DNA of 36,114 bases from Calditrichota bacterium (GCA_013152715.1 JAADFU010000012.1:1-36114), one strand, 5' to 3'. Numbered from the stretch's first letter, positions 10,432-30,060 are shown. Notes: generated by a model not told the origin, from the letters alone. Numbers and translations are program-made.

Positions 10432-13400
10432 ATGAAACGCTCTGGAAGAATTAAGTTCTGTGGGCAATCCGGGCTGGTTATCGGTCTGATGTTGCTCTGG
10501 AATCTGGGCTGGGCATCATCGGGTTTTCACCTTCAGGATACGACTGCACAGAAAATCAAAAATCAAGTTTTGCAAACTCAGATGAAAATTGAACCTGTGG
10601 ATTCGCTGACATGCGATCACACTAAACCTTATTTTACGAATTTGCGTCCTTATCCGAACAAAAAGGGCGTAGCTCTCTTTCCTACTATTAAATTTACAGC
10701 GAATGACGACGATCAACATAAAGATGACGATCCTTCGGGAATAGATACCAGCGCTGTGTTCATTACTGTCAAGGTCCGTCCCACTTCAGTGCGAATCATC
10801 AAAGCGCGTCCGCATCTGGTACGTTTTCGGGATGGCTTTTTCAAGATTGATTATGATTTTACTTTGCCGAGGCAATTAAATTACGATGATACTGTTTGGG
10901 TGGTGCTCGAGGCAACTGATTTATCGCGGAACAAAAATTACGGGCGCAAACAGTACAGACTTTATATTGAAAAAGATCCTGTACCGCCTGAGCTTGAGGT
11001 CAGGCAGCCGATTCCGTTTTCAACTGAGACGCTGCTGGCAACACCGCTGATTTTTTTCGCCAAAGACAACAAAAATATGCTCAATCAAAATTCGGCGCAA
11101 CTGATAATTAATAATCAAATTATCCCGTGGGATAAACTGCAATTTATTTCGAATGGCAGCGGCGATACGATAAAATATCAGCCGGATTCGCCTTTTGATT
11201 ACAATGAGACTGTGGATGTGTCATTCCGAATAGCCGACATACAGGAAAATTGGGCGGATACGACTTTCTGGTTCGACACGATAAAAGATACGACAGCGCC
11301 ACAAATTGCGCCAGTTCGTCCGTTGCCTGATCAGACGGAAACTTCGTTGAATACGGACATAGTGATTTTTTGCTCGGACGACGTGTCCGGCGTTGATACG
11401 TCGAGTATTGTCTTCAAAATTAATGATGTTGCAATTTCCCCCAGGGATTACTCAATCATCCATGTCGCAGGTGGTGATTCGATAAAATATCAGCCTTCAG
11501 TTTATCAATGGAATGATACCGTGAATGTGTCTTTTGGAATTACTGATTTTGCGCATAATGCAGCAGACACGGCGTATCAATTTTTTATCAAAAGTGACCA
11601 TATTAAGCCGACGATCGAAGTTTTGCAGCCATTTGCGAATGAGAACTGTGTGGATGATAGTACCTGGATTAAATTTTACGTCTCTGATGACAAATCCGGG
11701 ATCGACCAAAATTCAGCGAATTTAGTTGTAAATGGAAAATCGGTTCCCTCATCTGAACTGATCTTCTCTTCCGACGCTTCAGGTGATACGGTGAAATATT
11801 TTCCGACCGTCCCGTTTGGCTACGGTGAAAACGTTGATGTCAATTTTTCAATCGCTGACATTGTCGGCAATTCCGCCGATACCAGCTATTCATTTATTAT
11901 CGAAACGATTCCGGAAATAAAAATTGTGCGTCCGCAGCCCAATGCAGTCAATGTGCCAATTTCAACGGATATCGCGTTTTATGTCCCGCAGACGCATTGC
12001 GGTATTGATTCCTCGACGGTGATTTTTGTGGTTAATGGCGACACAATCGATCATGCGGCATTGGATTTCTTCAATGATGGCCAGGGAGATTCGATAAAAT
12101 ACCAGTCGGCGACGCCGTTCGCCTGGGGTTCGGTTGATTCGGTTTATTTTCGCATTGGTGATTTGGTCGGTAATTTTGCGGAAACGAGTTACAGCTTCAC
12201 CATTGAGAATGAGCCATTTCCGCCTGAAATTGAAATAGTCAGTCCTTTGCCTGATGCAAATTGTGTAGATGGCAGCGCTTCGATTGTAATCGTGGCAATT
12301 GATAGTCTGTCAGGAATTGATATCAACACTGCGGATTTGAAAATAAATCTTCAATCGATTCCACTTTCCGATTTGATTTTCAAATCATTCAATAAAGGGG
12401 ATACAATAATTTACGAGCCAAAAACTCCATTTACAAATGGCGAAACGATAAATGTCAATTTTTTAATCTCTGACATCGCCGGGAATTCAGCCGATACCAG
12501 CTATTCGTTTATCATTGAGACGACGCCTGAAATTCAAGCAAATCATCCGCAGCCGGGAGAAATTGGCGTTTCGCCGACCACGGATATTGTGCTTTACGTG
12601 CCGGAGACGCTTTGTAAGATCGATACAAATTCAGTGAGTTTATCCGTGAATGATACCGCGCGGACAAGTATGAACATATCCTTTGACGGGACCGGTTACG
12701 AATTTCAGTTTATCCCGACAGCGCCGTTTCATTACAATGATACAGTAAATGTTTATTTTAGTATTTCAGATATGGCGAGCAATCAGGCTGATACAAGTTA
12801 TCATTTTGTAGTCGCTTCACCGCCTGATACGATTCCGCCGATTATTGAGATAATCAATCCTGTTCCGGCGGAGCATTGCGTCGATGACAGCGCTGAAATT
12901 GTTTTGTTTGCGAAGGATTTGGAAACTGGCGTAGCTGTATCAACTATCGAACTCGTACTAAATGGGTCTGTAATTGATACGAGTGATATAATTGCTACGC
13001 CTAACACGCAAGGCATTGGCGACACTCTCAGATTCCATCCGTTAGTGCCATTTGGCATGGGGGATTCCATTTCTGTTTATTTTGCGGTATCCGATTTCGC
13101 AGGGAATAAAGCGGATACAAGCTACTCATTTTTCATTGAAACAGCGCCAGAAATTCGGGTGGTTCGTCCGCTGCCGGGAGACACCACTGTGGCGCCGACC
13201 ACGGATATTGTGGTCTATGTCCCGGAGACGTTTTGCAAAATTGATACAAATTCATACGTCTTCACTGTAAATAACGCGCAGCAAGGGAACGTCAACATCT
13301 CGTTTGACGGTTTGGGTTATGAATTTCAATTTGTTGCGGCAGATACATTTTCAAGCGGTGATTCTGTAAATGTCTATTTTGGAATTGTTGATTCAGCCGG

Positions 13401-15975
13401 CAATTGGGCGGATACGAGCTATTATTTCAAAATCCGCTCTGAAATTATTTTGCCCAAAATTGCTATCATTCGTCCGCTACCGAATGCCACCAATGTGGAT
13501 GATTTGACGGATGTAAAATTTTATGTATTTGATTTTGAGAGCGGCATTGATACCACGTTTCTCGCATTAAAGGTTGATTCTGTGCTAATTGAACATAGCA
13601 AATTAGCTTTTAATAAAACTCCCGCTGGATTTTTCGTGACATACAATCCATCGCAGCCGTTCCAATATGGCGACACGGTTCCTGTGGATATTTTTGTAAA
13701 GGACAAAGCAGGTAATAAAGCGGATTCAAGTTACTCCTTTACAGTAGAGCCGCCGCCTGAAACGATTCCGCCAAGGATAGTAGTTTACGTTCCCAAACCA
13801 AATGCGACGGGAGTGGATCCTGGTACAAATATCAAGATTTACACTTTTGATTTAGAAACAGGAATCGATAGTTCGACGGTACAATTGTCTGTTGATGCTG
13901 CTGTGATCGACCATAGCGAAATTACATTCACGAAAACGTCGGTGGGATATTTTGTCGATTATCAGCCGGCGAGTCCGTTTTCTTATGATTCTACCGTACA
14001 CGTAAATTTTTCTGTCAAAGATTTTGCCAGAAATGTGGCGGATACGAGCTATGTTTTTGCTGTTAATTCCGCGCCGTCTCCACAGCCAAATGATTCGATA
14101 CCGCCAGTGATAGAAGTTATCACTCCTTTACCTGACGATCATTGTGTAAATGACAGCACAGAAATTATCTTGTTTGTCGAAGATGCGGATACAGGTGTCG
14201 ATTTATCCACTATTGAGCTCAAAATAAATGGTAACGTAATTGATAACCAAGATTTGATAATTAATACAACTACTCAAGGTATCGGCGACACAATCAGATT
14301 CCCGTTTGTGCCATTTGACATGGGAGACACAATTTCAGTGCATTTTTCTGTATCTGATTTTGCACCTAATATATCGCATACGACTTATTCATTTATCATT
14401 GAAACAATGCCGGAAATTCAAGTGCTTCGTCCGTTGCCGGGAGACACCACTGCAGCGCCGACGACAGATATTGCAATTTATGTACCGGAGACGCTCTGCA
14501 AAATTGATACAAGTTCATACGTCTTCACTGTAAATAACGCGCAGCAAGGAAAGGTCAACATCTCATTTGACGGTCAAGGTTACCAATTTCAATTTGTTCC
14601 AAATATTGCATTTTCTTTCAATGAAACAGTCAATGTTCATTTTGGCGTTGCGGATTCGGCGAGCAATTGGGCGGATACGAGTTATTCATTTAAAATTGAG
14701 AAAGCAAATACGGGTAAAGATACGATGTCGCCAATTATCACTCTGATCAGTCCAAAACCCAATGAGGTTGTTGAAGACACAACAAATATTGTCATCAAAG
14801 TTACTGATACAAGCCCTGGTGTCGATAGTTCAAAAGTTATTTTGAAAATCGACTCAAATGAGATAAATCATTCGTTCATTACTTTTTCAGGGGATTCTGC
14901 GGCGTACAATATCGTGTATAGGCCATCGGCTCCCTTTCAACAGGGCTCTGTGGTTAATGTCTATTTTTATGCTGCTGATTTTGATTCAAATCCTGCGGAT
15001 ACGAGTTATAAGTTTTCTATTATTTCTGTACAGGAAGATACCGTACTACCAAAAATTTTCGCGATTCATCCACAGCCAAATGAAACTAATGTTGACGACA
15101 GCACTGCTATTGTTCTTTACGTTGTAGATCACGAAACAGGAGTTGATCTTTCTACGGCATCGATGTCTGTGGATTCACAGAAAATTTCAAATGACAGTTT
15201 GCAGTTTATTCCAAACGTTTTTGGAATCGGAGATACGGTCAAATATCAGCCAGAGTACGCTTTTCAGGCGGGCGCTATTATTACAGTATCATTTTCAATT
15301 AAGGATTTTAGTAATAATCTGGCGACTAAAACGTACCAATTCACGGTTGAGATTCCGCCGCCGCAGCCGGATACGATTCCGCCAAAGATTGTAATCGTAG
15401 GCCCAAAGTTGAATGACAGAAACGTACCCACGACGACATCAATCAATATAAAAACGTGGGATGAGCAAACGCAAGTTGATAAATCTAAAATAAAGCTAAT
15501 CGTTCTCAATTCGGAGGTTCAATACAACAATTTAGTTATTGAAGAAATTCAAGATATTGCTTTGGATACATTTTCTGTTAAATATGTTCCGCAGATTGCC
15601 TTGCCGTCGCGACAAAAAATCACTGTCAGGTTTCATTCGGAAGATGTCGCAGGAAATGCGGCAGATAGCGTCTATAGTTTTGTGACCAAAGGCGCTAAAA
15701 TCATTGTCCGTTCGAACCCGTTTACGCCCAATGGCGACGGCATCAACGATGAGGTGGAATTCAATTTCGAGAAATTGGACGTGGCGGATCCTGTATTGAA
15801 AATATTTGATTTACATAATCAAATCCAGAAAGAAATACATCGACCCGGAGTCAGGAGCATCCATTGGGATGGGAGAGATGACAGAGGGAAACCATTGTTG
15901 CCCGGAATATATTTTTACATTTTATTAGATGGCAATAAGCCGAAAACTCGCGGTATCGTTGCCATTGCAAAATAA
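10432..15975 (+). CDS. Giant 16-module Ig-like surface protein with TPNGDG-type C-terminal domain
   Basis: The 1,847-residue product has a signal peptide (hydrophobic core LVIGLMLLWNLGWA, cleaved near residue 30) and then 16 consecutive ~100-residue Ig-like modules. Each follows the pattern P-E-I-x-V-x-x-P-x-P ... G-I-D-x-S ... G-D-x-I-K-Y-x-P ... D-T-V-x-V-x-F-x-I-x-D ... N-x-A-D-T-S-Y-x-F-x-I-E. Modules 4-9 and 12-13 alternate between two subtypes. The last ~95 residues (RSNPFTPNGDGINDEVEFNF ... IHWDGRDDRGKPLLPGIYFY) are the gliding-associated/FlgD-like C-terminal domain used as a T9SS type-B-like signal. It is probably an extended adhesin exposed on the cell surface. It is followed after 11 bases by a PorP/SprF-like gene, the same order as sprB-sprF in gliding Bacteroidota. 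A ribosome binding site (AAAGGTG) precedes the ATG. Confidence 0.9.
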   Translation: MKRSGRIKFCGQSGLVIGLMLLWNLGWASSGFHLQDTTAQKIKNQVLQTQMKIEPVDSLTCDHTKPYFTNLRPYPNKKGVALFPTIKFTANDDDQHKDDDPSGIDTSAVFITVKVRPTSVRIIKARPHLVRFRDGFFKIDYDFTLPRQLNYDDTVWVVLEATDLSRNKNYGRKQYRLYIEKDPVPPELEVRQPIPFSTETLLATPLIFFAKDNKNMLNQNSAQLIINNQIIPWDKLQFISNGSGDTIKYQPDSPFDYNETVDVSFRIADIQENWADTTFWFDTIKDTTAPQIAPVRPLPDQTETSLNTDIVIFCSDDVSGVDTSSIVFKINDVAISPRDYSIIHVAGGDSIKYQPSVYQWNDTVNVSFGITDFAHNAADTAYQFFIKSDHIKPTIEVLQPFANENCVDDSTWIKFYVSDDKSGIDQNSANLVVNGKSVPSSELIFSSDASGDTVKYFPTVPFGYGENVDVNFSIADIVGNSADTSYSFIIETIPEIKIVRPQPNAVNVPISTDIAFYVPQTHCGIDSSTVIFVVNGDTIDHAALDFFNDGQGDSIKYQSATPFAWGSVDSVYFRIGDLVGNFAETSYSFTIENEPFPPEIEIVSPLPDANCVDGSASIVIVAIDSLSGIDINTADLKINLQSIPLSDLIFKSFNKGDTIIYEPKTPFTNGETINVNFLISDIAGNSADTSYSFIIETTPEIQANHPQPGEIGVSPTTDIVLYVPETLCKIDTNSVSLSVNDTARTSMNISFDGTGYEFQFIPTAPFHYNDTVNVYFSISDMASNQADTSYHFVVASPPDTIPPIIEIINPVPAEHCVDDSAEIVLFAKDLETGVAVSTIELVLNGSVIDTSDIIATPNTQGIGDTLRFHPLVPFGMGDSISVYFAVSDFAGNKADTSYSFFIETAPEIRVVRPLPGDTTVAPTTDIVVYVPETFCKIDTNSYVFTVNNAQQGNVNISFDGLGYEFQFVAADTFSSGDSVNVYFGIVDSAGNWADTSYYFKIRSEIILPKIAIIRPLPNATNVDDLTDVKFYVFDFESGIDTTFLALKVDSVLIEHSKLAFNKTPAGFFVTYNPSQPFQYGDTVPVDIFVKDKAGNKADSSYSFTVEPPPETIPPRIVVYVPKPNATGVDPGTNIKIYTFDLETGIDSSTVQLSVDAAVIDHSEITFTKTSVGYFVDYQPASPFSYDSTVHVNFSVKDFARNVADTSYVFAVNSAPSPQPNDSIPPVIEVITPLPDDHCVNDSTEIILFVEDADTGVDLSTIELKINGNVIDNQDLIINTTTQGIGDTIRFPFVPFDMGDTISVHFSVSDFAPNISHTTYSFIIETMPEIQVLRPLPGDTTAAPTTDIAIYVPETLCKIDTSSYVFTVNNAQQGKVNISFDGQGYQFQFVPNIAFSFNETVNVHFGVADSASNWADTSYSFKIEKANTGKDTMSPIITLISPKPNEVVEDTTNIVIKVTDTSPGVDSSKVILKIDSNEINHSFITFSGDSAAYNIVYRPSAPFQQGSVVNVYFYAADFDSNPADTSYKFSIISVQEDTVLPKIFAIHPQPNETNVDDSTAIVLYVVDHETGVDLSTASMSVDSQKISNDSLQFIPNVFGIGDTVKYQPEYAFQAGAIITVSFSIKDFSNNLATKTYQFTVEIPPPQPDTIPPKIVIVGPKLNDRNVPTTTSINIKTWDEQTQVDKSKIKLIVLNSEVQYNNLVIEEIQDIALDTFSVKYVPQIALPSRQKITVRFHSEDVAGNAADSVYSFVTKGAKIIVRSNPFTPNGDGINDEVEFNFEKLDVADPVLKIFDLHNQIQKEIHRPGVRSIHWDGRDDRGKPLLPGIYFYILLDGNKPKTRGIVAIAK
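13141..14596 (+). repeat. Near-identical in-frame DNA repeat between Ig-like modules 9 and 13
   Basis: The segments 13141-13333 and about 14402-14596 are closely similar DNA, including an identical 36-base run at 13251-13286 and 14514-14549, exactly 1,263 bases (421 codons) apart. Similarity extends to silent positions, which points to a recent duplication or gene conversion rather than only protein-level constraint. The coordinates given span both copies and the modules between them. Confidence 0.75.
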
Positions 15976-15986
15976 AAGGTGATTCG

Positions 15987-17798
15987 ATGAAAGCGCAAAA
16001 TTTACAGAAAGCGATTATTATTGTCATTTTAATCGGATTATTTCAAGCGTTGGGCGCACAGGAATTGATACGAAATAATCCTGCGGATCGGAGCGATCCG
16101 AAAACACTATTGCGCAATCCGGCGATCATTCCGTTTCAGAATCTCGCGGTGAATTTTGGAATGCGGATACTAAACTATGGTTTTTTGGCGGATGATCCTG
16201 CCGGCATCAGATATACTTATAATACAACAAGCTATCCGGATTTACTGGGTACAGGCATTGCAATTGGTTTTCTGGCGCAGACGTTCAATGCCGTTCTTTA
16301 CTCGCAATCCGAATTTGGTCTTGCAGCAGCTTATTCCATTGGTGAGGCAGTTTCCGTCGGCGTGACTACGCGATTTCGCAATCACACTTTTGACCAAAGC
16401 AAAATGGATCTGGTAAATCCAAATGACCCCATTTTTGCCAACGGAACCGGGCAGTGGAATGCAAGCTTTGACGCCGGTTTAGTCATCAGCCCCATGGAGG
16501 AATTATCCATTGGCGTAAGCGTCTGTAATCTGAATAAACCTGATCTCTCCTTAGCAAATGCCGGTGCAAGATTGCCGCGAGAATTTTCTTTCGGCGGAAA
16601 ATATTTGTACCGTAATTTTGGTTTTTCTCTGTTTGGAAATTATTACAATGAAAAAATTGCTATTGGCTTAATGACCGAGGCAAATATAAAAAACCGTTTT
16701 ATTTTCCGCGCCGGTTACCTCGGCGGCGATGATTGCATTACTGCTGAAACGCAAATTAACATGTTCAAAGGACTTGGTTTGACCTATCGGTTCGATTATC
16801 CTCTGAATGAGATGAATAGTTTTGGCAGCGGCACGCATCAACTGGAATTGACCTGGAATATGCGCTACAATCCGTTATACGCTTATGACATTCAAGCCTC
16901 ATGCGATACTGTGGTAGTGGTTGCGGAAACGCCCATTATTCGGATTAGTAAGAATGCGATAACTGATTCGATTTTGAAAATTATTGAACCCAAAGATTTG
17001 CTTTTCAGCGATCAACTTAATGAGAAATTGTACGTTCCGGTCAAAGACGGCGGTCTGCCGCTTGACGCGCTCGAAGAAGACACATCATTTTATAAGACTG
17101 CCGCTATTTTTAAGCATAATTTTGACGACATCAAGGACTACACGGAGAGGACGGGCAAACGGATTCCGGTGCGCATTACTTACAACGATGCGGTCACTGG
17201 CGAACGGGCGGTGTTGTTAAGAAAATTTTTTATTGATAGTTTGAAGATTCCGCCGGAAGACATTCAGTTTGCGATGGAGAAGCCTTTGGATCAGCTTGAT
17301 TCGTTGGATGCGGCGAGAATGGATAGCATAAAAGAACTCATTTCTATGGCGGACACGGCGTTTGCTGTGGATGGGTATATCGAAATTTCAGGCCCGACTA
17401 TCGAAAAAATGGAACCAAGTTCCATAATTTTTCAGATATCTGGGATCAGACGGCGCAATGTATCCAAGTGGCGAATTATGATCACTGATTTCCTGGGCAG
17501 GAAAGTGCATGAGATTGCCGGTTATCATAGCGTGGAGCCGGAAGTCCCCTGGGATGGCTTCACCGCAGATGGACATCTATTGAGAACGGGCGATTTTTTC
17601 TACCAATTTCAATATTCTTTGGGCGGAAAGCGCTGGGTTCCCAAAAAGCCCAAGCGCCATCGCATCGCTTTTCGCATGATTAAAAGGTCTCATATTATTG
17701 AGATCAAAAGAGAACAAATTAAAAAATTTGGTTTACTCAAGAGCATCGTGATAATATTGAAAAATCCTTTGGAGGTCGAAAAACGCTTAAATCAATAA
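15987..17798 (+). CDS. PorP/SprF-like outer-membrane barrel with C-terminal extension
   Basis: The 603-residue protein has a signal peptide (core AIIIVILIGLFQALGA). Residues ~30-315 look like a PorP/SprF barrel: start LRNPAIIPFQNLAVNFGMR, repeated amphipathic strands with G-x-G turns, and the LSIGVSVCNLNKPDLSL stretch typical of that family's 'x-N-L-x-x-P' region. Residues ~320-603 are extra: an acidic/basic region around 350-460 (KDGGLPLDALEEDTSFYKTA ... GERAVLLRKFFIDSLKI), faintly OmpA-like in rhythm, then a FlgD-like Ig fold (VPWDGFTADGHLLRTGDFFY) and a basic tail. In known systems PorP/SprF proteins help export or anchor the neighbouring adhesin, and the gene order supports this here. An AAGGTG site 6 bases before the ATG fixes the start. 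Confidence 0.8.
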   Translation: MKAQNLQKAIIIVILIGLFQALGAQELIRNNPADRSDPKTLLRNPAIIPFQNLAVNFGMRILNYGFLADDPAGIRYTYNTTSYPDLLGTGIAIGFLAQTFNAVLYSQSEFGLAAAYSIGEAVSVGVTTRFRNHTFDQSKMDLVNPNDPIFANGTGQWNASFDAGLVISPMEELSIGVSVCNLNKPDLSLANAGARLPREFSFGGKYLYRNFGFSLFGNYYNEKIAIGLMTEANIKNRFIFRAGYLGGDDCITAETQINMFKGLGLTYRFDYPLNEMNSFGSGTHQLELTWNMRYNPLYAYDIQASCDTVVVVAETPIIRISKNAITDSILKIIEPKDLLFSDQLNEKLYVPVKDGGLPLDALEEDTSFYKTAAIFKHNFDDIKDYTERTGKRIPVRITYNDAVTGERAVLLRKFFIDSLKIPPEDIQFAMEKPLDQLDSLDAARMDSIKELISMADTAFAVDGYIEISGPTIEKMEPSSIIFQISGIRRRNVSKWRIMITDFLGRKVHEIAGYHSVEPEVPWDGFTADGHLLRTGDFFYQFQYSLGGKRWVPKKPKRHRIAFRMIKRSHIIEIKREQIKKFGLLKSIVIILKNPLEVEKRLNQ

Positions 17799-17830
17799 GT
17801 GAGTTTGAACACGAGACATAGGTCTTATTC

Positions 17831-17868
17831 AGATGCTATTCGTTGGCTATTTATAATGAGTAGCATCT
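17831..17868 (+). promoter_or_regulatory. Intercistronic hairpin between barrel and channel genes
   Basis: AGATGCTATTC (17831-17841) pairs with GAGTAGCATCT (17858-17868), an 11-bp stem with one T-G wobble and a 16-base loop. There is no good T-run after it, so processing, attenuation or mRNA protection is more likely than full termination. The loop contains TATAAT (17852-17857), with a poor TTCAGA 18 bases ahead, so a weak internal promoter is an alternative. Confidence 0.4.
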
Positions 17869-17927
17869 ATTTATTATGCAGCAGCATGGAGAAATTTCAA
17901 CTCGTTATAACATTTGAGGGAGGAAAA

Positions 17928-19589
17928 ATGAAACGGGTGATTTTACTGATTTTTTTGATCCTGGCAACGTCGGCGGTCATTTTAAATGTCATCGTTTTGG
18001 CACAACAGAAATCGGCAGCTACAGAAACACAAAATAGCGATACAACCGGGCTTAAGACTGCCGGCAAATCAGCTCCCGGGCGCGACACCAGTTCACAGGA
18101 CAGTGGGAAAAGAGGCTTTTCAGCCAATGTTTTATTGGATCTATTTAAAGAAGCTGAAGTCTTCGGCTATTTTTTGGCTTTAGATTTCATCCTTGGCGTG
18201 GTTTTCTTATTTCAACAAATCCTTGTTCTAAACCGCGAAATGAAAGACGCTCGCAAAATTCCTATCGATCAAATTAAACGTCTCGGATATGAAGAAATCG
18301 AAAAGATGTTCAAACAGGTGAAAGAAGATGAGCCAATTTCTGTTGACGAAGAAAAAGATGAAATGGAGAGGCTCCCTTTGCTCAAAAGGCTATTCATGCG
18401 CAAAAAAGCCTCCGCGTTTCAACTGGCACATCGGTTGTTTCTCGTTTTCGAAAATAAGCGGTCAACAGCAGAGTTCAATGAAATCACCTCTAATTTTGTA
18501 CAATATTTGAAAGACATGTTTAATCCGTTTCTCACGCGGCTGGCTTTTTTGTCCGACACTGCCGGCGCGCTTGGACTATTGGGTACAGTTTGGGGGATGT
18601 TTATGGTGTTCCATCGCGGTTCTCCGGATCAGTCGGAGATTTTAAAGGGCATGGGCGTCGCCTTATCGACAACCATTATCGGTCTGGTTATCAGTATCAT
18701 CCTTAATTCGCTGACTACTCTTGCGAACAACAAATTTGATCGTCATTTAGCGACAATTAATCGCGTCAGTGAAGTGTTACAAGAAAGGCTGATGAAAGAC
18801 GAGATCTTCCAGTCGGGAGGTCCGGCTCAAGTTGTCCTTGATGCGGATGCGCTGACGAGAATTCGCGAGCAAACGCCGGCCGCCGGCTCTGCGAAGCCTG
18901 ATGGCAAGAGCAGTGAAGAAAAAGTAACGCCGAAAAAGCGGCGAAAAATTCTTATGCCTTCGGAAATAAAAATTGTCTCCGGCAATAACCAGGTCGCCGA
19001 AGTCGGCAGCGAGCTCCCGCAACCCATTGTCGTAGAAGTCATCGATGAAGATGGTAACCCATTGGAAGGCCAGGAAGTTGCCTTTGTGGCGCAAGAAGGC
19101 GCCGGAAATTTCCCGAATGATAGCCGGGTGCGCAAAATTCTCACTAATGAAGAAGGTCGCGCGGAAACGGCTTTTTCTCTGGGAAAAAAGGCGGGCGAAA
19201 AGAAAATTACCATTACTTTGGACAGCGCAGAAGTCCAACCCAAGTCCCTGTTAGTGATGGCTAAACCTGCTTCTGCGGCTAAACTCGTCGATGTTGACGG
19301 CAATTATCAAACAGGCGAGTTAGGGAAGCGTTTGCCCCGACCATTTATTGTTGCGGTGCGAGACAAATTTGACAATCCGATCCCTCGCTATGAAGTGAAT
19401 TTTTCTCTCAGTCGGGGGAGCGGAAAATTTCAAGACTCACAAAATGCCCATTTGCTGGCTTATACGAATGAATCCGGGTTTGTAGAAGTTTATTTTATCA
19501 TTGGCAATGAACGCGGCGCAAGAGATATTGAGATTGAAGCCAAAAAAGTAAATCCGTCAAAAATTAATTATGAAATTTTTGCGGTGTAA
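17928..19589 (+). CDS. MotA/TolQ/ExbB-type proton channel fused to two Ig-like (Big_1-type) domains
   Basis: The start is set at ATG 17928 (553 residues) because GAGGGAGG sits 5 bases ahead; the in-frame GTG at 17799 would add 43 residues without signals. Order: a signal peptide-like helix (1-25, ending VLA), a Ser/Thr-rich linker, TM1 (~78-101), a cytoplasmic helical region (~102-205), TM2 with LGLLGTVWGMFMVF (~207-230), TM3 with GMGVALSTTIIGLVISIILN (~240-270), and a linker rich in K/R. Two ~100-residue Ig-like domains follow (~345-450 and ~455-553; each with the Big_1 pattern E-x-G-x-x-L-P-x-P-x-x-V-x-V-x-D-x-x-x-N-P). Ordinary ExbB/TolQ proteins are ~220-250 residues and lack these. Basic residues after TM1 and TM3 predict a cytoplasmic C-terminus, an odd place for such domains. 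It should form the proton channel with the two ExbD-type proteins encoded next. Confidence 0.88.
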   Translation: MKRVILLIFLILATSAVILNVIVLAQQKSAATETQNSDTTGLKTAGKSAPGRDTSSQDSGKRGFSANVLLDLFKEAEVFGYFLALDFILGVVFLFQQILVLNREMKDARKIPIDQIKRLGYEEIEKMFKQVKEDEPISVDEEKDEMERLPLLKRLFMRKKASAFQLAHRLFLVFENKRSTAEFNEITSNFVQYLKDMFNPFLTRLAFLSDTAGALGLLGTVWGMFMVFHRGSPDQSEILKGMGVALSTTIIGLVISIILNSLTTLANNKFDRHLATINRVSEVLQERLMKDEIFQSGGPAQVVLDADALTRIREQTPAAGSAKPDGKSSEEKVTPKKRRKILMPSEIKIVSGNNQVAEVGSELPQPIVVEVIDEDGNPLEGQEVAFVAQEGAGNFPNDSRVRKILTNEEGRAETAFSLGKKAGEKKITITLDSAEVQPKSLLVMAKPASAAKLVDVDGNYQTGELGKRLPRPFIVAVRDKFDNPIPRYEVNFSLSRGSGKFQDSQNAHLLAYTNESGFVEVYFIIGNERGARDIEIEAKKVNPSKINYEIFAV

Positions 19590-19633
19590 TTTTTACTTAA
19601 AAATTTGAACTTTTAAAATTTGTGAGGGGAAAA

Positions 19634-20056
19634 ATGTCTGGCAGCGGGGTTATTATCCGTTTGATTGACATTGTTTTGCTGCTTTTGTTCGGATTTATCG
19701 CCATTAGCGAGATAGAAAAAAAGAGTCCGGTAAAATTGCCACAAAGTGTCGCTCGTGTGAAAAATAAGCAAGAGGAGGATGAACTGCTTATTTTAGGAAT
19801 AACATTGAATGAAAATAAGAAGCTGACATTTATTGTTGAAGCTGAAGATGCAACTTTGCCGTCTTTGCGAAGCGTGAAAGATAAAATTCTGCGGCGACGA
19901 AAAACTTTGGCCGAAGAATTTGATCGTAAATTGAAAGTGCGCATTCGTTCGGATTGGAATTTACCAATCAAATATACCATGAAAATTGCCAAGTTTTGTC
20001 AGAAAAATAATATCCCTGTGGGGATGGATGTAGAAACAAAAAGCAGAAAATTTTAG
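19634..20056 (+). CDS. ExbD/TolR-type motor subunit, first copy
   Basis: A 140-residue protein with a very short N-terminus, one membrane helix and a periplasmic domain. The helix contains RLIDIVLLLLFGFIAIS, where D12 corresponds to the proton-carrying aspartate of ExbD/TolR/MotB. The periplasmic part (about 60-140) has the expected two-strand, two-helix size. GAGGGG 5 bases before ATG 19634 sets this start over the upstream in-frame GTG at 19622. It lies 44 bases after the channel gene and 25 bases before the second copy; both copies share IIRLID at the same residue positions, so they are paralogues that probably form a heteromeric rotor or stator core. Confidence 0.88.
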   Translation: MSGSGVIIRLIDIVLLLLFGFIAISEIEKKSPVKLPQSVARVKNKQEEDELLILGITLNENKKLTFIVEAEDATLPSLRSVKDKILRRRKTLAEEFDRKLKVRIRSDWNLPIKYTMKIAKFCQKNNIPVGMDVETKSRKF

Positions 20057-20081
20057 ATCATGATTCCGGTGGAGCAAAAAA

Positions 20082-20534
20082 GTGAAACGTAATGGTACGA
20101 TTATTCGTCTGATCGACGTGGTGATGATTCTTCTTCTTGGCTTTCTCTCTATCAGCGATATTGTGCATAAAAATGAAATAAAATTGCCAACCGGGCGTAA
20201 GAAAACTAAATCTCCGCAACAAAGCAAACTCTTGCGTCTCAGGATACAGATCGTACACAGCGATTCGACCATTGACAGCTTGCAGAACAATAATTCTCGT
20301 ATTGCGAAAAGCCAGCAATTCATCACATATTCTGTCAGCGGAGATGAGAAGTCATTTCGAATTCGCAATCTGGATCAGTTAGAGGATGAACTCAAAAAAA
20401 CGAAAGCAATGTATGATTCGATGTTGGTGATTATCGCGCCGGACTCCAACTCAATCGTGCAGGGAACAATTAATCTGATCGATATTTGCCGTAGGAACCA
20501 CTTCAAGCGGATGTTCGATTATCCAAAACAATAG
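20082..20534 (+). CDS. ExbD/TolR-type motor subunit, second copy
   Basis: A 150-residue protein with GTG start (GGTGGAG 6 bases ahead). It has the layout of the first copy: short cytoplasmic end, helix RLIDVVMILLLGFLSIS with the essential-type D12, then a periplasmic domain (IVHSDSTIDSL ... ELKKTKAMYDSMLVIIAPDS ... INLIDICRRNHFKRMF) that fits ExbD/TolR. The sequence outside the membrane helix is quite different from the first copy, so the two are not redundant recent duplicates. One ExbB-type protein with two ExbD-type proteins is the make-up of the AglRQS motor of Myxococcus and of some Tol-like systems. Confidence 0.87.
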   Translation: MKRNGTIIRLIDVVMILLLGFLSISDIVHKNEIKLPTGRKKTKSPQQSKLLRLRIQIVHSDSTIDSLQNNNSRIAKSQQFITYSVSGDEKSFRIRNLDQLEDELKKTKAMYDSMLVIIAPDSNSIVQGTINLIDICRRNHFKRMFDYPKQ

Positions 20535-20621
20535 TCAATCTGTCTGATTGGCATGTTTAGAAATTTCAATTTGTCGCAATGAATTTGGTTTTTGGGGCGG
20601 ATAAAATTTTGGTGAGATATT

Positions 20622-21626
20622 ATGAAATACAAATATGAGCTAAACTGGTGGGATCATTATGATCAAGACCGCTGGATCACTTCATACATCATTTCCGCTT
20701 TTGTGGTCTTGTTTGCTTTTTTTGTGTTAAAAAGCATCAACATTCCCAAATTACCCAAAAAGATGTTACCCCCAGAAGATTTGGTTTTTTACGAAGAGCC
20801 GGTGCAGAAAAAAATTATGCCCAAACAAATTCAACGTCAGCAGCAGCCGGTGCAGCAGGAAATATTTGAAAAAGATCCGGAAATCATCATCCCTGTACCT
20901 GCACCACCGGAACCAACGACGAATTTGCCTCAGAATATGCCAAGTTCAGATAATTTTCAGGTGTTTGAAAACCAAAGTCAGGACATGCCGCAAAGTATGC
21001 CCGAGATGCAACTCGCCGACGGGGAAATGGTTCCTGCTGAAGATGATGCGCCCCTGGAAATCCCTACAGGTTTCGAATCTGAATGGACTCAAGAGAACGC
21101 AATAACGAAAATCACGACAAAACATGGCGACCAGTCAAATGTCGATGTGAGTAGCGGCATTTCAACCACCATACGAATGGAACAAAAGAACAATAAAGTG
21201 CAGTTTTCCGGTTTTCGTGGTGAAATTGATTGGAGTGAAATCTTGGATCCTTTGTTGGGCTGGATTGGAAAAAACAATATGGATATCGGACTGATTCCCA
21301 GAAAAAAATTGACGCGCAAAGACAAGACAATGAAAACAACGAGAAAAAATTTGATAATAGACGGAAAAAAGTTTGAAATTCTCCTCGCTAGCAAGGAATC
21401 TAGGCGTCAGGTGACGATTTGCATGATAGACAAAAATACCAACGAATATGTGCTTTTGGTGGACCAGGGATTGACTAAAACGAGCAGCCTTTTCGAGTTG
21501 GGAACAATCGAGCGCGATAAAAATGGTCAGGTCGTCAGATTTAAATATAGCCAGAAAAGCGCTAATAGCGATATCGCAAAAAAGAGAATGGCGCAGTTTT
21601 GGGGATGGGCGAAAACGTTGCATTGA
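20622..21626 (+). CDS. TonB-topology protein, candidate energy transducer
   Basis: A 334-residue protein with a ~19-residue cytoplasmic end rich in W/D/Y, one membrane helix (about 20-40, SYIISAFVVLFAFFVL), a Pro/Gln/Glu-rich stretch (about 45-150, including QRQQQPVQQE and PVPAPPEPTTNLPQNMP) long enough to span the periplasm, and a folded C-terminal domain (about 195-334). This is the architecture of TonB/TolA-like transducers and its place after ExbB/ExbD genes supports that role. The C-terminal domain does not show a recognisable TonB_C motif, so the receptor it touches is unknown. GGTGAG 6 bases before the ATG fixes the start. The gene is 87 bases after the second ExbD-type gene. Confidence 0.7.
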   Translation: MKYKYELNWWDHYDQDRWITSYIISAFVVLFAFFVLKSINIPKLPKKMLPPEDLVFYEEPVQKKIMPKQIQRQQQPVQQEIFEKDPEIIIPVPAPPEPTTNLPQNMPSSDNFQVFENQSQDMPQSMPEMQLADGEMVPAEDDAPLEIPTGFESEWTQENAITKITTKHGDQSNVDVSSGISTTIRMEQKNNKVQFSGFRGEIDWSEILDPLLGWIGKNNMDIGLIPRKKLTRKDKTMKTTRKNLIIDGKKFEILLASKESRRQVTICMIDKNTNEYVLLVDQGLTKTSSLFELGTIERDKNGQVVRFKYSQKSANSDIAKKRMAQFWGWAKTLH

Positions 21627-21827
21627 TGTCGTCGAGCTTCGCTAAATTGTTCATATTTTCTGCTTGTCAATGAAGCGACTTGTTATTGCATTCAGGCGAT
21701 GAAGCGGGTGAGACGGGTAATAAACGATATTTGTTAGCAAAAAGCGAATAAAACAAAAGCATAAGAATAGCTGGTTAATTCAAAAAGTAGCCGACAAAAG
21801 AATTAAGACGAATCAACAGGAATCGAT

Positions 21828-23207
21828 ATGAAAACAGGAAAATATTCAATTGGAATTTTTATTTTTATTTTTCTGGTAGCCGGTTTTTTTGCGACCGTTT
21901 TAGCACAAGAGCAAAAAAAGTCCGTTTTTGATGTAGCAAAAATTGACACATCGATTTGGAAATATCTCCGGGCGTCGGATCGGACAAACTGGCAAATTAC
22001 GCCTGAAGATTCGCAAACTGCTTACAGAGATTATTTTTTGCCGGGATATTATTTGTATCTTGATGTCACTAAAATATTTTCAAAAATTAGCAAAAAACGA
22101 ACCACTTACGCCGAAAGCGCTGATAAACTCATTGATCTTTTGGAACAGACGCAAACCTATTTTGAAGAAACAGCGCGTTTAAATCCTTTTGCCAAAAATT
22201 TGCAATTGGCGTTAAGAAATGTGTATCTCTATTTAGATGGCTTGTACAAATTCAAAAAGGAAGATGAAAAACGGTATCCGATTTTGTTGAAACGGCTTAT
22301 TCTGGAAACCGACCGCAAGAAGAGGATCGTCATTTATAATAGCTTGTCTCAACTGATGAATTCCCAGCAAATGTTTCCGCAGGAGGAAAAGTATTCTCAG
22401 ACAGAAATTGACCTGATTTTTGAGGATGATTTTTCGAAAATTGACACGGTTCAATTATTCAGCGCTCTTTATCAGCGCGGATTTGCTCAATACAAAATGC
22501 ACAAGGGAGATGAAGCCTTGACCTCGTTTCGGCGCGCAATAACAATTGCGCCCAACGACAAGTGGAAAAAGGCAATAGCTGGATATATTCGTTTAATCGA
22601 CTGGGACAGGGGCAACATTGAATCTGCCGAATATTATTCCCAAGCAATGGGATTGATTCGCGAAAAAAAATATGCGTCGGCGTCCGAAAAACTGCAAAAC
22701 GCGCTAAATGTTGTTGCTACTCAAAAGGCAAGAAGAACCATTCAATTTCAACTGGCTTTTCTGGAATTTTATCAGCTTGGCAAAAAGGCGGAGGGGATCA
22801 ATCGGCTCTGGGTGCAGAACAAGATCCTGGCATCTTTGCCTGATTCCTCGGCGAGTATGGACTCCACGAAAAGCCTCTACTTTAATCGATACGCTCAAAT
22901 GTGCTTTCGCCTTGCCGGCGAATCGATGCAAAAAGATCGAAAAAGGGCATTTTTTTATTTTTACCAAATAACCACTTTTGATAATTCTCTCAAAGGGCGC
23001 GCTTACTATTATCTGGCTTCCCTTTCGTTGCTCAACCAGGATCAATGTCTGAAGTTTTGCCAGAAGGCGAATCAGTATTGGGATGAATTAGAGAAAAGCG
23101 AACAGTCCGGATTGGCCACGCTTTTTTATCGCGTTTATTCGAGTAAGGGAAATTTTGACGAAGCGCTGAATTGGTTTAAAAAAGCTCATTTTTTAAAGCA
23201 AAGTTAA
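21828..23207 (+). CDS. Periplasmic TPR protein, first of three paralogues
   Basis: The 459-residue product has a Sec signal peptide (IGIFIFIFLVAGFFATVLA, cleaved before QEQ) without a lipobox. The mature part is alpha-helical with TPR-like repeats, clearest at YQRGFAQYKMHKGDEALTSF and YYYLASLSLLNQDQCLKFCQ and at the C-terminal GNFDEALNWFKKAHF. A segment IDWDRGNIESAEYYSQA corresponds to ILWDDGNIRASE and IFWDGKNIRTAE in the next two genes, so the three proteins are diverged duplicates. Likely role: scaffold in the envelope machine. It follows a 201-base gap (21627-21827) in which I see no clear promoter or terminator, so it is presumed part of the operon. AGGA 8 bases before the ATG serves as ribosome binding site. 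Confidence 0.82.
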   Translation: MKTGKYSIGIFIFIFLVAGFFATVLAQEQKKSVFDVAKIDTSIWKYLRASDRTNWQITPEDSQTAYRDYFLPGYYLYLDVTKIFSKISKKRTTYAESADKLIDLLEQTQTYFEETARLNPFAKNLQLALRNVYLYLDGLYKFKKEDEKRYPILLKRLILETDRKKRIVIYNSLSQLMNSQQMFPQEEKYSQTEIDLIFEDDFSKIDTVQLFSALYQRGFAQYKMHKGDEALTSFRRAITIAPNDKWKKAIAGYIRLIDWDRGNIESAEYYSQAMGLIREKKYASASEKLQNALNVVATQKARRTIQFQLAFLEFYQLGKKAEGINRLWVQNKILASLPDSSASMDSTKSLYFNRYAQMCFRLAGESMQKDRKRAFFYFYQITTFDNSLKGRAYYYLASLSLLNQDQCLKFCQKANQYWDELEKSEQSGLATLFYRVYSSKGNFDEALNWFKKAHFLKQS

Positions 23208-23230
23208 TTTTGGATGCTGGAGAACAATAG

Positions 23231-24754
23231 ATGCGGCGATTAGGTATTTTGTTGATTTTAATTTTTCTTGTGGCTTGCGCAGGTCAGCAGCAACTGGCAA
23301 CGCAGCGGCCGATTGTCATCCCCCAGGGGAAAAAAGAAATTCCAGCGGGTTTGGACGCTAAAACGGTACAGGAGGCTGATTCAGTTTTTAATGAAGCAAA
23401 TGTCACTGAAAGGAGTCAGCAAATCGCGGCTGAATATTTTCGCCAAGCTGAAGAAATGGCGGGCTTGTGCGATTCTCTTTGGAATTTCATGACTTCTGAA
23501 CGACATTCAAAATCTGACACGACAAAAGCATTGCAGTGGCGTTTGCGAGCGCTGGAACATTTGAAAGTTGCGCCTTATGAATCGCGATCCATTTGGAAAT
23601 TGACAAAAAAATACGGGCGTCTGCATTCTTCTGTAATTGACGCTGTCGTTCGGGCTTTGATTCCGCAGACCAGTAAAATTTATGAGAGCGCGATCAGGTA
23701 CAATAGATTTGTGAGAGTTTTTCGTCAGCATTTCGCCGCATTTCTGGAATCGAGTTATGAGAAAATAATGGATCGTACCTTTTTGGATCGGGCGATTGAA
23801 CAGCATGAAACGGTGGTGAAATCAAAAAAAGACAGTCGCATTTCTTACGCGAAACTTGGAAATTTATATTACAAAGAAGGAAAATGGCAAAAAGCGTTTG
23901 AGAATTACGGCAAAGCAGCAACGCTCCTGAAGAAGACTGCCATCTTTAGCGTGCCCCAGCCGGAATTATATTTTGACCGATTGCCGGATGTGCCCGTTGA
24001 TACCGCGCGATTGGTATCTTATCTTTCTTACCAGGCAAACAGCAAAATTCATCTTTATGAGGCACAGCCGGCGTTGAAGTTTTTGCGAATAGCCAGAAAA
24101 TTGACTCCGATAGAGAAATACAAGCAGAGTTTCAAAAAACAAATTAAATGGATTTTATGGGACGATGGCAACATTCGCGCTTCGGAAATGAAGGACAAAG
24201 CAGATTCTATTTTGAATGCAAATAATTATCAAGAAGGAAAAGCGACCTTATTAGCGTTGTTGGGTATTCTCAGTACCAAGCGTACGCAGGATGAAACTAA
24301 TTGGAAAATTGCTCAGATCGATTTCACCTATTTAGACAATGAAGAAGCTGGCATTGCCAGAATGCATCGTGTGATTAAGTATTCCGCCAAAGATTCGCTC
24401 ACTGGCGCTCCGATTGATTCATTAGCCGGGCGCTATTTTGACAGTTACGGTCTGATGTGTTTTCAATTGGGGTTAGAATTTTTGGAGCAAGATCTGTCCT
24501 ATGCTTATGTTTATTTTTCACAGATTGCGCAGACTCCTTGTGCAGATCGCGCAAAAGCTTATATTCAGCTTGCAGTTTTATCTCAGTTTGATCCTAATGA
24601 AGTGATAAATTTGTGTAATAAGGCAATGGAAAATAAAGAATTATTAGATAATGATAGCCGTAAGGCGATGTACGAAATTCTTTACAAGGCTTACCGCAAG
24701 TTGGGAAATTTTACCGCAGCTCGAGACTGGTATGATAGGTGGCAAGGGGAATGA
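23231..24754 (+). CDS. TPR lipoprotein, second of three paralogues
   Basis: A 507-residue lipoprotein: signal peptide with lipobox FLVAC, so Cys16 would be acylated; residue +2 is Ala, which would favour the outer membrane by the E. coli rule. The body has TPR-like helices (ISYAKLGNLYYKEGKWQKAFENY near 200, KAYIQLAVLS near 440, AYRKLGNFTAARDWYDRW at the end) and the shared ILWDDGNIRASE segment. It begins 23 bases after the first paralogue with GGAG 9 bases ahead of the ATG. It probably bridges the periplasmic and outer-membrane parts of the system; partner specificity cannot be read from sequence. Confidence 0.82.
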   Translation: MRRLGILLILIFLVACAGQQQLATQRPIVIPQGKKEIPAGLDAKTVQEADSVFNEANVTERSQQIAAEYFRQAEEMAGLCDSLWNFMTSERHSKSDTTKALQWRLRALEHLKVAPYESRSIWKLTKKYGRLHSSVIDAVVRALIPQTSKIYESAIRYNRFVRVFRQHFAAFLESSYEKIMDRTFLDRAIEQHETVVKSKKDSRISYAKLGNLYYKEGKWQKAFENYGKAATLLKKTAIFSVPQPELYFDRLPDVPVDTARLVSYLSYQANSKIHLYEAQPALKFLRIARKLTPIEKYKQSFKKQIKWILWDDGNIRASEMKDKADSILNANNYQEGKATLLALLGILSTKRTQDETNWKIAQIDFTYLDNEEAGIARMHRVIKYSAKDSLTGAPIDSLAGRYFDSYGLMCFQLGLEFLEQDLSYAYVYFSQIAQTPCADRAKAYIQLAVLSQFDPNEVINLCNKAMENKELLDNDSRKAMYEILYKAYRKLGNFTAARDWYDRWQGE

Positions 24755-24776
24755 ACAGAACACTTCTGAGGAAAAC

Positions 24777-26402
24777 ATGAGAACAAAAGGGTTTCTGCTT
24801 TTGGGCATCCTCTTCTTGATTGTTGTCGGATGTGCAACTACGAAAAAATCTACAACCGTATTGATGCCAAAGACGGTAAACGAGTTGCCTTACGTGCCTG
24901 TTGGCGTCGATACTTCCGTTGCGATTAACGCTCGCTCTCGAGCCGCTAAATTGTTTAGCGCGTACAAGAGTAAAAAAGAGGCGGATAGCATTTATACCAA
25001 TACCAAAGATTATGTGGAGATAGTTTATGAATTGTACTCGAAATTGGAAATGAAGAAAGATTCGCTCAAGTTGCTCCGTTTGAAAGCCAAAAACCTGGAA
25101 GATAAAATCAAGAGTAAGAAGTCGGTTGTGCTTGAGGAGCGGAATCAATTAAAGAAATTGTTCAAAAAAATTGAAAATGATTCTGCCACCATTGAAATAA
25201 CGCTTAGCCTTTTGGAATATTATCTGTTTGACGTGCAAAATAAATTGGAACATGCCTATTCGATAGATCCTTTCAATCTAAATATTTTGATTTTGTCAGG
25301 TATGAGTGAAAATAACCGCGGCAGGATGTATAATGATAGCAGGGCTTATCAAAATGCAATACGACAGTTCAATAAATTTTTTAGCCATGATCGCGGGGTG
25401 TATTCGGCTTATGCTGCGATTTCGTTTAGTTACCATCAGTTAAAGAAATGGCAAAAAGCGTACCAATATGCGCGAAAAGCCAAGGAGATTTATGCGATCA
25501 CGAGCTATTTTGATAAGCCGCTGAAAAATATTCCGGAAAAATATGCCAAAACAACCTTGCCGCCCTTTGGGGATCCCGCTGAATACTTTAACTTGTTGAC
25601 GGCGAAGGGGGTCACTGAAGTTCGTACTTATCAAGCGGATTCCGCCTTAGCCACATTTAATGAAGCGTTACAGTTTGCTAGCTCAGGCAAAGATTCGAAT
25701 TATGTGGAATCTTTTATTAAAAATTATATTTTTTGGGACGGGAAAAATATTCGCACCGCTGAAAGACATCTGGAAATTGCCGATTCTTTGCGCGTTAACA
25801 ACTACAAGTGGGCATATCGCCCTTTGACGGAGTTATTGCCTCAACTAACAACTACCAAAGCCAGGCATGTCGTCAGTTGGGAATTGGCGCGAATTGAGTA
25901 TGATTCATTGAAACAGGAGGAAAAGGCAGCCAAGCGGCTTTATGCGGTCGTTGCTGAAGCTGATTCAGACAAAAGCACACCAAATTTTTTTGAAACCCCG
26001 GCCGATACGACCTATCTGCGCTACTTTCGTGATTGCGGACAAATGCTGCTCAATTTGGGCAGAAAATTCAGAGGTGAAGGCGACATCCAAAAGGCGCATC
26101 ATTATTTGAGTCAGGATACCACGATTTCATGGAAAGGGCGCGCGAAAGCTTTTCTCCTGATGTCGAATGTCATCGTTATTTCTTCGAATATTACAGGTCA
26201 AGAACGGCAAAAAATGTTTTTTAATGAAAGATTAAAGTTGCTCCTGCGAGCGCGGGAGTTTCGAAAAGATCTCGAACCCAATGAAATTGATGCGGTATAT
26301 CGAGGGATTATTGATATTTACAAAAGTTTAGGGAAAAGGAGGGAGGCTGGATTTTATTTTTATGAATGGAATAAAATCAGGAAACAAAGGAATGGTGACT
26401 GA
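24777..26402 (+). CDS. TPR lipoprotein, third of three paralogues
   Basis: The start is taken at ATG 24777 (541 residues): it is preceded by GAGG and gives a lipoprotein signal peptide GILFLIVVGC (Cys18), whereas the longer frame from 24651 overlaps the previous gene. After a coiled-coil-prone segment (about 85-150, KDSLKLLRLKAKNLEDKIKS and on) come TPR-like repeats (AYAAISFSYHQLKKWQKAYQ near 230) and the paralogue motif IFWDGKNIRTAE near 320. The coiled-coil part is unique to this copy. It lies 22 bases after the second copy and 23 bases before the last gene, so translation is probably closely linked. Confidence 0.82.
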   Translation: MRTKGFLLLGILFLIVVGCATTKKSTTVLMPKTVNELPYVPVGVDTSVAINARSRAAKLFSAYKSKKEADSIYTNTKDYVEIVYELYSKLEMKKDSLKLLRLKAKNLEDKIKSKKSVVLEERNQLKKLFKKIENDSATIEITLSLLEYYLFDVQNKLEHAYSIDPFNLNILILSGMSENNRGRMYNDSRAYQNAIRQFNKFFSHDRGVYSAYAAISFSYHQLKKWQKAYQYARKAKEIYAITSYFDKPLKNIPEKYAKTTLPPFGDPAEYFNLLTAKGVTEVRTYQADSALATFNEALQFASSGKDSNYVESFIKNYIFWDGKNIRTAERHLEIADSLRVNNYKWAYRPLTELLPQLTTTKARHVVSWELARIEYDSLKQEEKAAKRLYAVVAEADSDKSTPNFFETPADTTYLRYFRDCGQMLLNLGRKFRGEGDIQKAHHYLSQDTTISWKGRAKAFLLMSNVIVISSNITGQERQKMFFNERLKLLLRAREFRKDLEPNEIDAVYRGIIDIYKSLGKRREAGFYFYEWNKIRKQRNGD

Positions 26403-26425
26403 TTCGCAAACCGAGGGGTAGAATT

Positions 26426-27115
26426 ATGAGGCGTCTTGCTTGTGTCAACTTATTGTTAGTATTGATAATGGGTTCTGCTGCAAAGATTTGGTCTCAAGTG
26501 GAATATTATTACGATTATGAATTTGTCAGCAAAATAGTAATCACAGACAAGAAAGTGATTGACAAATTGGTTTTGGACTTATTCCTGGCTGAAACAAATG
26601 TTGAGAAAATTGAAATTTTCGACATCGACGGGAATGGCCCTGGTGAAGGCGATTTGCTCCGTGTTGATCCTTCGAGAAATGTGCATACGTTAAGCATGCT
26701 GACAAAAGAGACAAAGGACATTTTGAATGGGATTGAGAAAGATCCGAATGCAGGAGATGAAGGGTTGACAATTAATATCGGCGAACACCCGAGTACGCCT
26801 GAGGAAGAAATTCTCTCAATTATTGGCAATGTCATCATGAAAATCTATGCGCATGATCAACCGCTGAAGTTGTATTTCGAGCAAGACGAGGATGGCACTT
26901 ATCGTTACAATTTGTACGGATACAAGAAGGAAATGTTAAAGGATTCTACCCATTTCCATTTTGGTGAAGTCAGTGAACAGCAGGTACAGGATTTGCTCAA
27001 AGCCCTCTATCAGGAATTTGCCAGTGAATATAAAGGATTTCAGCCAACAGTGGTAAGAATTCGTGAAGTGATACGGGATACAGTTTACGTGCCGCTGTAT
27101 AAAAAGAAAAAGTGA
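26426..27115 (+). CDS. Secreted protein of unknown function, last gene of the operon
   Basis: I do not recognise this 229-residue protein. It has a signal peptide (LACVNLLLVLIMGSAAKIWS) and a mixed alpha/beta mature part with an acidic segment around 65-80 (EIFDIDGNGPGEGDLL), which looks like a possible calcium-binding loop (D-x-D-x-N-G) but lacks a clear EF-hand. The last residues are basic (PLYKKKK). GAGGGG 7 bases before the ATG fixes the start. Its position, 23 bases after the TPR lipoproteins and directly before the operon terminator, makes it a candidate accessory part of the same machine. Confidence 0.75.
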   Translation: MRRLACVNLLLVLIMGSAAKIWSQVEYYYDYEFVSKIVITDKKVIDKLVLDLFLAETNVEKIEIFDIDGNGPGEGDLLRVDPSRNVHTLSMLTKETKDILNGIEKDPNAGDEGLTINIGEHPSTPEEEILSIIGNVIMKIYAHDQPLKLYFEQDEDGTYRYNLYGYKKEMLKDSTHFHFGEVSEQQVQDLLKALYQEFASEYKGFQPTVVRIREVIRDTVYVPLYKKKK

Positions 27116-28657: not shown

Positions 28658-28683
28658 ATCAAGCAAAAGATGGAGAGATGCAC

Positions 28684-29976: not shown

Positions 29977-30000
29977 CTGATATTTAAAAATAAAACTTGA

Positions 30001-30044: not shown

Positions 30045-30060
30045 GTGAGGGCTAATTCGA

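Follow-up and report, generated by a model that had tools for sequence, protein, structure and literature searches.

A ten-gene operon of a Calditrichota bacterium encoding a giant type B adhesin, its PorP/SprF-like barrel, an ExbB/ExbD/ExbD motor and a transducer with an unrecognised tip

Ten genes of a Calditrichota bacterium encode a giant secreted adhesin, a PorP/SprF-like barrel, an ExbB/ExbD-type motor, a transducer of TonB-like topology, three TPR proteins and one more secreted protein, and the whole block is probably one machine powering its surface protein. We observe the co-occurrence of these genes, their order and co-inheritance, the channel residues, the transducer layout and the presence of SprA; the function is inferred, and we regard it as likely that the motor works in some way on its own adhesin–PorP complex. 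The window, that is, the whole stretch of 36,114 nt analyzed here, belongs to a 4.15 Mb draft genome, whose nearest named relatives are MAGs of candidate division KSB1 and Caldithrix. All ten ORFs have been confirmed on the plus strand at 10432–27115, in the order given in the preliminary description, which had reported ten same-strand genes. The families it had named are also matched by Pfam (Big_5 and CHU_C, PorP_SprF, MotA_ExbB, two ExbDs, and TPRs in P7–P9, with the P8 and P9 matches below cut-off), and P10 is secreted without a match. The features are as follows.

10432–15975, plus strand: P1, secreted adhesin of about 16 Ig-like (Big_5) modules with a C-terminal CHU_C domain, the T9SS type B signal (TPNGDG), assigned by Pfam, NCBIfam and module count
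15987–17798, plus strand: P2, PorP/SprF-like outer-membrane barrel (residues ~54–291) with a C-terminal periplasmic extension of ~300 residues, assigned by Pfam and a structural model
17928–19589, plus strand: P3, ExbB/TolQ-type channel subunit that begins with a signal peptide, followed by three TM helices and, at the C-terminus, two Big_1 Ig domains (the ORF opens at 17799; start from the Shine-Dalgarno site)
19634–20056, plus strand: P4, first ExbD/TolR-type subunit (PF02472, 2e-10; the ORF opens at 19622)
20082–20534, plus strand: P5, second, distinct ExbD/TolR-type subunit (PF02472, 8e-11)
20622–21626, plus strand: P6, transducer of TonB topology, with a TM helix (15–38), a disordered Pro-rich linker (~50–200) and a globular C-terminal domain (204–332)
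21828–23207, plus strand: P7, TPR protein with an ordinary signal peptide, paralogue of P8 (TPR_1, 2.9e-10)
23231–24754, plus strand: P8, TPR lipoprotein, lipobox LVAC (TPR_11, 1.8e-4, below the Pfam cut-off)
24777–26402, plus strand: P9, TPR lipoprotein, lipobox VVGC (TPR_12, 4.2e-4, below cut-off; the ORF opens at 24651)
26426–27115, plus strand: P10, secreted protein with an ordinary signal peptide, no Pfam match and a conserved D-x4-G-x4-D loop
27138–27180, plus strand: intrinsic terminator closing the unit, hairpin AGGCAGGUGGA...UUCAUCUGCCU followed by a U-run (11 pairs, –26.2 kcal/mol, z = –3.2)

Intergenic gaps are short, 11–130 nt, with the exception of 201 nt before P7. ATG codons behind clear Shine-Dalgarno sites are the likely starts of P3 (17928), P4 (19634) and P9 (24777), and given the last of these, P9 does not overlap P8. 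The terminator expected at about 27138 is well supported by the hairpin and U-run, while the promoter proposed at 10003 is not supported: its sigma-70 match cannot be told from chance, as a scan yielded 56 sites of this kind where 43.5 ± 6 are expected. Directly upstream of the operon, at 6360–9606, a PAS histidine kinase and an NtrC-type sigma-54 response regulator (8236–9606) are encoded. A sigma-54 promoter for the operon was considered and rejected, the GG/GC core being absent between 9924 and 10432.

The adhesin P1 matches Big_5 in six significant stretches (1.8e-30), and the motif count, 14 clear module ends and two looser ones, is consistent with the 16 modules described earlier. Its CHU_C match (PF13585, 7.7e-8) is above the Pfam cut-off, so we accept a type B C-terminal signal; the NCBIfam model TIGR04131 (3e-5, 24 bits) stays under its cut-off of 35. 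For the adjacent P2, PF11751 (PorP_SprF) scores over cut-off (1.6e-14) and also matches 30 of 33 P2 homologues, so the adhesin has a neighboring barrel of the family; TIGR03519 from NCBIfam reaches 62.9 bits, below the cut-off of 90.55. In the AlphaFold2 model (pLDDT 81.6) P2 is a FadL/PorV-type barrel, and its Foldseek matches include relatives of FadL as well as a component of the T9SS complex (8gl6_F). P2 runs ~300 residues past the PorP family models, which end at 273–292 positions, and the extension is therefore a plausible point where the barrel is coupled to the motor. It comprises an alpha/beta domain followed by a FlgD/CTD-like Ig domain, and the closest PDB sequence match is FlgD (E 0.0096).

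P3 matches MotA_ExbB (7.4e-14) and carries two Big_1 domains (1e-14), which were absent from the preliminary description. The signature SDTAGALGLLGTVWG is conserved among P3 homologues, and the two TM threonines of ExbB are kept in 98% of them. In P4 the TM Asp and an Arg are invariant (100% across 42 homologues), as is the TM Asp of P5 (100% across 40); the numbers of loci with P4 and P5 are lower bounds, as ORF picking favors longer ORFs and sometimes an antisense ORF replaces a short ExbD. With a MotA_ExbB channel retaining the TM Thr and an ExbD retaining the TM Asp, P3–P5 have what defines the 5:2 motors of the ExbB–ExbD and TolQ–TolR kind, and one TolQ with two TolR (P3, P4, P5) is the subunit set of Agl–Glt. 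From the topology, a signal peptide and then three TM helices, it is inferred that the Ig tail of ExbB should be cytoplasmic, an unusual place for Big_1 domains. Zorya defence (ZorAB with ZorC/D) was rejected, since P3 has only a weak generic match to ZorA and P4–P10 have none. A scan of the genome contigs with P3 as the sole query yielded no relatives.

The TonB-like protein of the preliminary description, P6, does have the topology ascribed to it: in the model the tip (204–332) has pLDDT mostly above 90, and TM helix, Pro-rich linker and folded tip follow each other as in a transducer. P6 is not TonB, though. No Pfam family is shared by 32 members, with single chance-level matches only; the C-terminal domains TonB_C and TolA are absent from all 32 at E ≤ 0.1; no sequence relative was found in PDB, and no PDB fold match to the tip by Foldseek at E ≤ 1e-3. 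P6 can thus be called a transducer by layout only, as predicted from the model, and membership in the TonB, TolA or vWA families was rejected, no such domain being matched in 32 homologues. Weak Foldseek matches to CapZ (E 3.5e-3, low TM) were discarded. By eye, the P6 alignment also lacks the SHLS-type TM motif of TonB and TolA, which counts against a motor–adhesin link.

P8 represents the TPR protein present in nearly all homologous operons, and homologues of P8 and P9 are similar by phmmer. At least 15 of the loci, a number that counts some contigs twice, encode an extra TPR lipoprotein of ~340 residues ahead of the adhesin. D66, G71 and D76 are invariant in the P10 alignment, and the loop looks EF-hand/dockerin-like by eye. 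Several operon proteins end their signal peptides in ...AQ, which suggests that the Q-rule of Bacteroidetes may reach the phylum of the window.

The lipoproteins resemble CpoB, and the P2 extension has a weak OmpA-like look (an RAxGLR motif in the alignment, alternating strands and helices in the model), which leaves room for an envelope tether of the Tol–Pal kind, in which the outer membrane would be coupled to the cell wall by the motor, the TPR lipoproteins and P2 with its alpha/beta domain, the adhesin being a mere passenger. We consider this very improbable, as TolB and Pal are absent from the unit, several paralogous operons are found per genome, and a true peptidoglycan-binding OmpA domain in the extension is supported neither by Pfam in 33 P2 members nor by PDB sequences, the resemblance of folds being by eye only.

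Within the phylum, the P6 family is present in 31 of 82 genomes (28 of 63 in the class). Further loci were defined by a scan for the ExbB signature [LF]SDTAGALG, which, to our knowledge, is missing from generic ExbBs; it yielded 47 loci, including Balneolales/Balneolaceae, Salinibacteraceae, Rhodothermaceae, Bacteroidetes-labelled and a few Gemmatimonadota MAGs. The gene order recurs in KSB1, Caldithrix, Balneolales/Rhodothermota and Bacteroidetes-labelled MAGs. Out of 59 distinct ExbB loci, 49 are complete or have enough upstream sequence, and 47 have 5 kb downstream. PorP is found in 47 of the 49 upstream-covered loci, and PorP together with a CTD protein in 45; the downstream-covered loci contain P6 (43/47), TPR (43/47) and P10 (41/47). 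The length of the adhesin varies from ~550 to ~1900 residues across conserved loci, and thus the order is kept across several phylum-level groups while the adhesins differ, a pattern that had been named beforehand as support for one machine.

Operons of type 1, as in the window, have the order adhesin–PorP–ExbB (+Ig)–ExbD–ExbD–P6–TPR (1 to 3)–P10. Type 2 is PorP–ExbB (no Ig)–short CHU_C protein–large vWA/cohesin/CTD protein–ExbD–ExbD–P6–TPR–P10; the partner domains (vWA, cohesin and CTD) were read in one locus, L071. In these operons (L071–L079 and L090) PorP and the motor flank the short CHU_C protein and a protein of ~900 residues. A cohesin–dockerin-like contact between the P10 loop and the cohesin domains of type 2 partners is conceivable, with no data on contacts.

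Several genomes have two or three copies of the operon. For one copy, the closest relatives of its P2, P3 and P6 are mostly neighbors in a single foreign locus, and for the other copy in another (e.g., L025 with L026, L036 with L037, L075 with L076), that is, the three proteins have separate parallel ancestries in the copies. Identity matrices of most family pairs correlate at 0.74–0.91, the lowest value being 0.66. Such block inheritance over deep divergence (often 20–50% identity) is predicted by a physical machine, and together with the conserved order it supports the claim that adhesin, barrel and dedicated ExbB/ExbD motor are one unit.

P6 is matched in 21 of 394 genomes drawn from the phylum to which a Balneolaceae genome belongs; the weakest of these matches cover only its N-terminal part. 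Some of these loci form types 3 and 4, with ExbB, two ExbDs, P6, TPR and P10 and no recognisable PorP or CTD, these being replaced by proteins in which DUF4402, Ig or CarboxypepD_reg-like stretches occur; the core of six motor genes is therefore a module serving more than one kind of secreted partner. A motor occurring as a rule apart from the adhesin–PorP pair would have refuted the single unit; such separation is seen in some genomes only, those with types 3 and 4, and is not the rule. Still, the same motor beside other secreted proteins in these types counts against a link between motor and adhesin, as do the few loci with PorP and adhesin downstream of the motor, not upstream (L040, L083), and the lack of any experiment, expression data or predicted complex joining the two. 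The P6-motor clusters without recognisable PorP or CTD at L173–L187 possibly represent a fimbria-like system.

The T9SS translocon SprA (PF14349, 2.9e-34) is encoded on contig C74 of the same genome. Of the phylum's 82 genomes 79 have SprA, as do 16 of 18 operon-bearing genomes checked, whereas the GldM profile matches none of the 82 and, in the 18, nothing over threshold, with one sub-threshold match. The same profile matches 51 of 198 genomes in a draw from the Bacteroidota phylum, which is a positive control for the GldM search. In the 82 genomes GldL gives one weak match and nothing over cut-off, and GldN matches none of them, without a positive control. Thus, among the T9SS core genes named in the preliminary description, SprA is present and GldM was not detected. 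The operon's motor appears to stand where GldLM is missing, at the sensitivity of profiles, for which GldL and GldM may be too divergent.

In Bacteroidota, SprF binds SprB (PMC9143113), and GldLM powers both secretion and SprB movement (PMC8986121). The operon shares with this system a type B CTD adhesin, a PorP/SprF barrel, SprA in the genome and a proposed proton-driven inner-membrane motor, but has its ExbB/ExbD/ExbD and P6 encoded with the adhesin, a barrel extended by ~300 periplasmic residues in contrast to SprF, and nothing over cut-off for GldL, GldM or GldN in the 82 genomes.

The near-ubiquity of SprA and the undetected GldM, with the control matches, would fit a motor energizing export of its own cargo, i.e., powering release of the type B adhesin and its PorP carrier from SprA, the job of GldLM in Bacteroidota. 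We see this as possible but unlikely: most genomes with SprA secrete without this motor (P6 in 31, SprA in 79 of 82) and need another power source, and GldL and GldM could simply have escaped the profiles. As SprA is common without the motor, we favor mechanical actuation over export, if the motor acts on its own complex. An ExbB–ExbD pair follows sprA in the genome G000 and in two order-level relatives; as the general T9SS motor of the phylum it was dropped, being undetected in the other sprA neighborhoods read. In most of the sprA neighborhoods read (L194:11410–19799, L195–L214) sprA is followed by a gene whose product looks like a glutaminyl-cyclase/M28-type protein.

Mechanical actuation could proceed as follows. 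By analogy with T9SS biology, the adhesin would be exported via SprA by its type B signal and stay bound to P2, as SprB does to SprF. The P3 ring of ExbB type and the P4/P5 axle of ExbD type, judging from their families, would convert proton motive force to motion. With its TM helix at the motor, P6 would reach across the periplasm by the Pro-rich linker and engage the outer-membrane side with its tip; the inferred partners there are TPR lipoproteins, P10 and/or the extension that P2 has in the periplasm. The force might then move or re-orient the anchored adhesin, resulting in surface motility or switchable adhesion similar to that of Agl–Glt/Nfs. Whether the operon is such a self-contained ion-driven trans-envelope machine, targeting its own adhesin–barrel complex to move or re-orient the adhesin, is in our judgement evenly balanced, function being inferred.

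The AglRQS motor consists of one TolQ/ExbB-type and two TolR/ExbD-type subunits. It drives the surface movement of the Glt and Nfs complexes of Myxococcus xanthus after export (PMC3858216), and the operon resembles it in that one ExbB-type and two ExbD-type proteins would drive a trans-envelope complex and in vWA-type surface proteins (here, type 2 partners), differing in the T9SS type B adhesin class, the PorP barrel and P6 without known relatives. The vWA force transducers, encoded with TPR, tolQ and two tolR genes (PMC12204202), likewise combine a TPR gene, two TolR-like proteins that differ from each other and a transducer whose tip is not of TonB type; unlike them, the tip of P6 has no vWA match, vWA occurs in the secreted partner (type 2), and there is a link to PorP and a CTD adhesin. 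The TonB–ExbB–ExbD system has the same ExbB and ExbD families and the topology of P6, whereas here the tip is of another kind than TonB_C, a plugged TonB-dependent transporter is missing, ExbD is doubled and ExbB has an Ig tail.

The cluster FSU_2396–2403 of Fibrobacter succinogenes (OmpA–TPR–TPR–...–ExbB–ExbD–ExbD–TonB), up-regulated on cellulose and read as cellodextrin uptake (PMC6851124), shows a similar layout of TPR, ExbB–ExbD–ExbD and a TonB-family-type protein in an FCB-group bacterium, with no PorP or giant adhesin reported there. On this precedent, the ExbB–ExbD–transducer layout and the cohesin domains of type 2 partners could be read as TonB-like uptake, the adhesin capturing polymers and ExbBD–P6 driving import of the breakdown products. 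Such a role is improbable, as the operons contain no TonB-dependent transporter, P6 has no TonB_C, and the barrel is PorP/FadL-like, with PorP relatives carrying type B cargo.

In the literature searched, no system of this composition is described, in agreement with the earlier claim of an undescribed combination; most subscription papers and preprints were outside coverage. As far as searched, the parts are of known kinds, whereas their combination and the tip of the transducer are new. The operon as a whole is placed with the ion-driven 5:2 trans-envelope force systems. P6 adds a transducer family with an unrecognised tip to the TonB, TolA and vWA types. With SprA near-universal in the phylum and GldM undetected, an operon joining the adhesin–carrier pair to a motor makes the powering of T9SS or of adhesins outside Bacteroidota testable, and if the adhesin is moved, this would be a further surface-motility machine derived from the ExbB/ExbD motor kit.

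One more feature concerns the junction between ExbB and its Ig tail. Seven Balneolales loci have a run of ten adenines there (A11 in L123), a few codons before the end of the ExbB ORF, at these positions:

L112:7073
L113:3001
L116:10485
L120:4553
L121:5705
L122:5337
L123:5093

Lacking a signal peptide, the Ig tail follows the run in a different reading frame, which stays open for ~250 codons in six loci and for fewer in L121. The position of the run is constant, though third codon positions are only 42–56% identical between most pairs (L120–L122 are close relatives), and it is the sole A run of nine or more in 78.6 kb of ORF sequence of these loci. Probably, programmed transcriptional slippage or frameshifting yields both untailed and Ig-tailed ExbB in the seven loci, a prediction from sequence, with products not demonstrated; this reading also fits a cytoplasmic tail. 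Tentatively, and with doubts prevailing, we consider a new class of surface motors of bacteria, in lineages with SprA that lack GldLM (KSB1, Balneolia and relatives): there, every giant type B adhesin may have its own ExbB/ExbD/ExbD proton motor and a transducer of unknown fold driving it along or off the surface, with some lineages tuning the ring by slippage between Ig-tailed and untailed ExbB.

Outside the operon, the window encodes a DUF3160 protein with the Por_Secre_tail T9SS signal (407–2986, minus strand), a second likely T9SS substrate, and, downstream at 28678–32178, a barrel of FadL/TodX-like type and a TPR protein that matches GWxTD.
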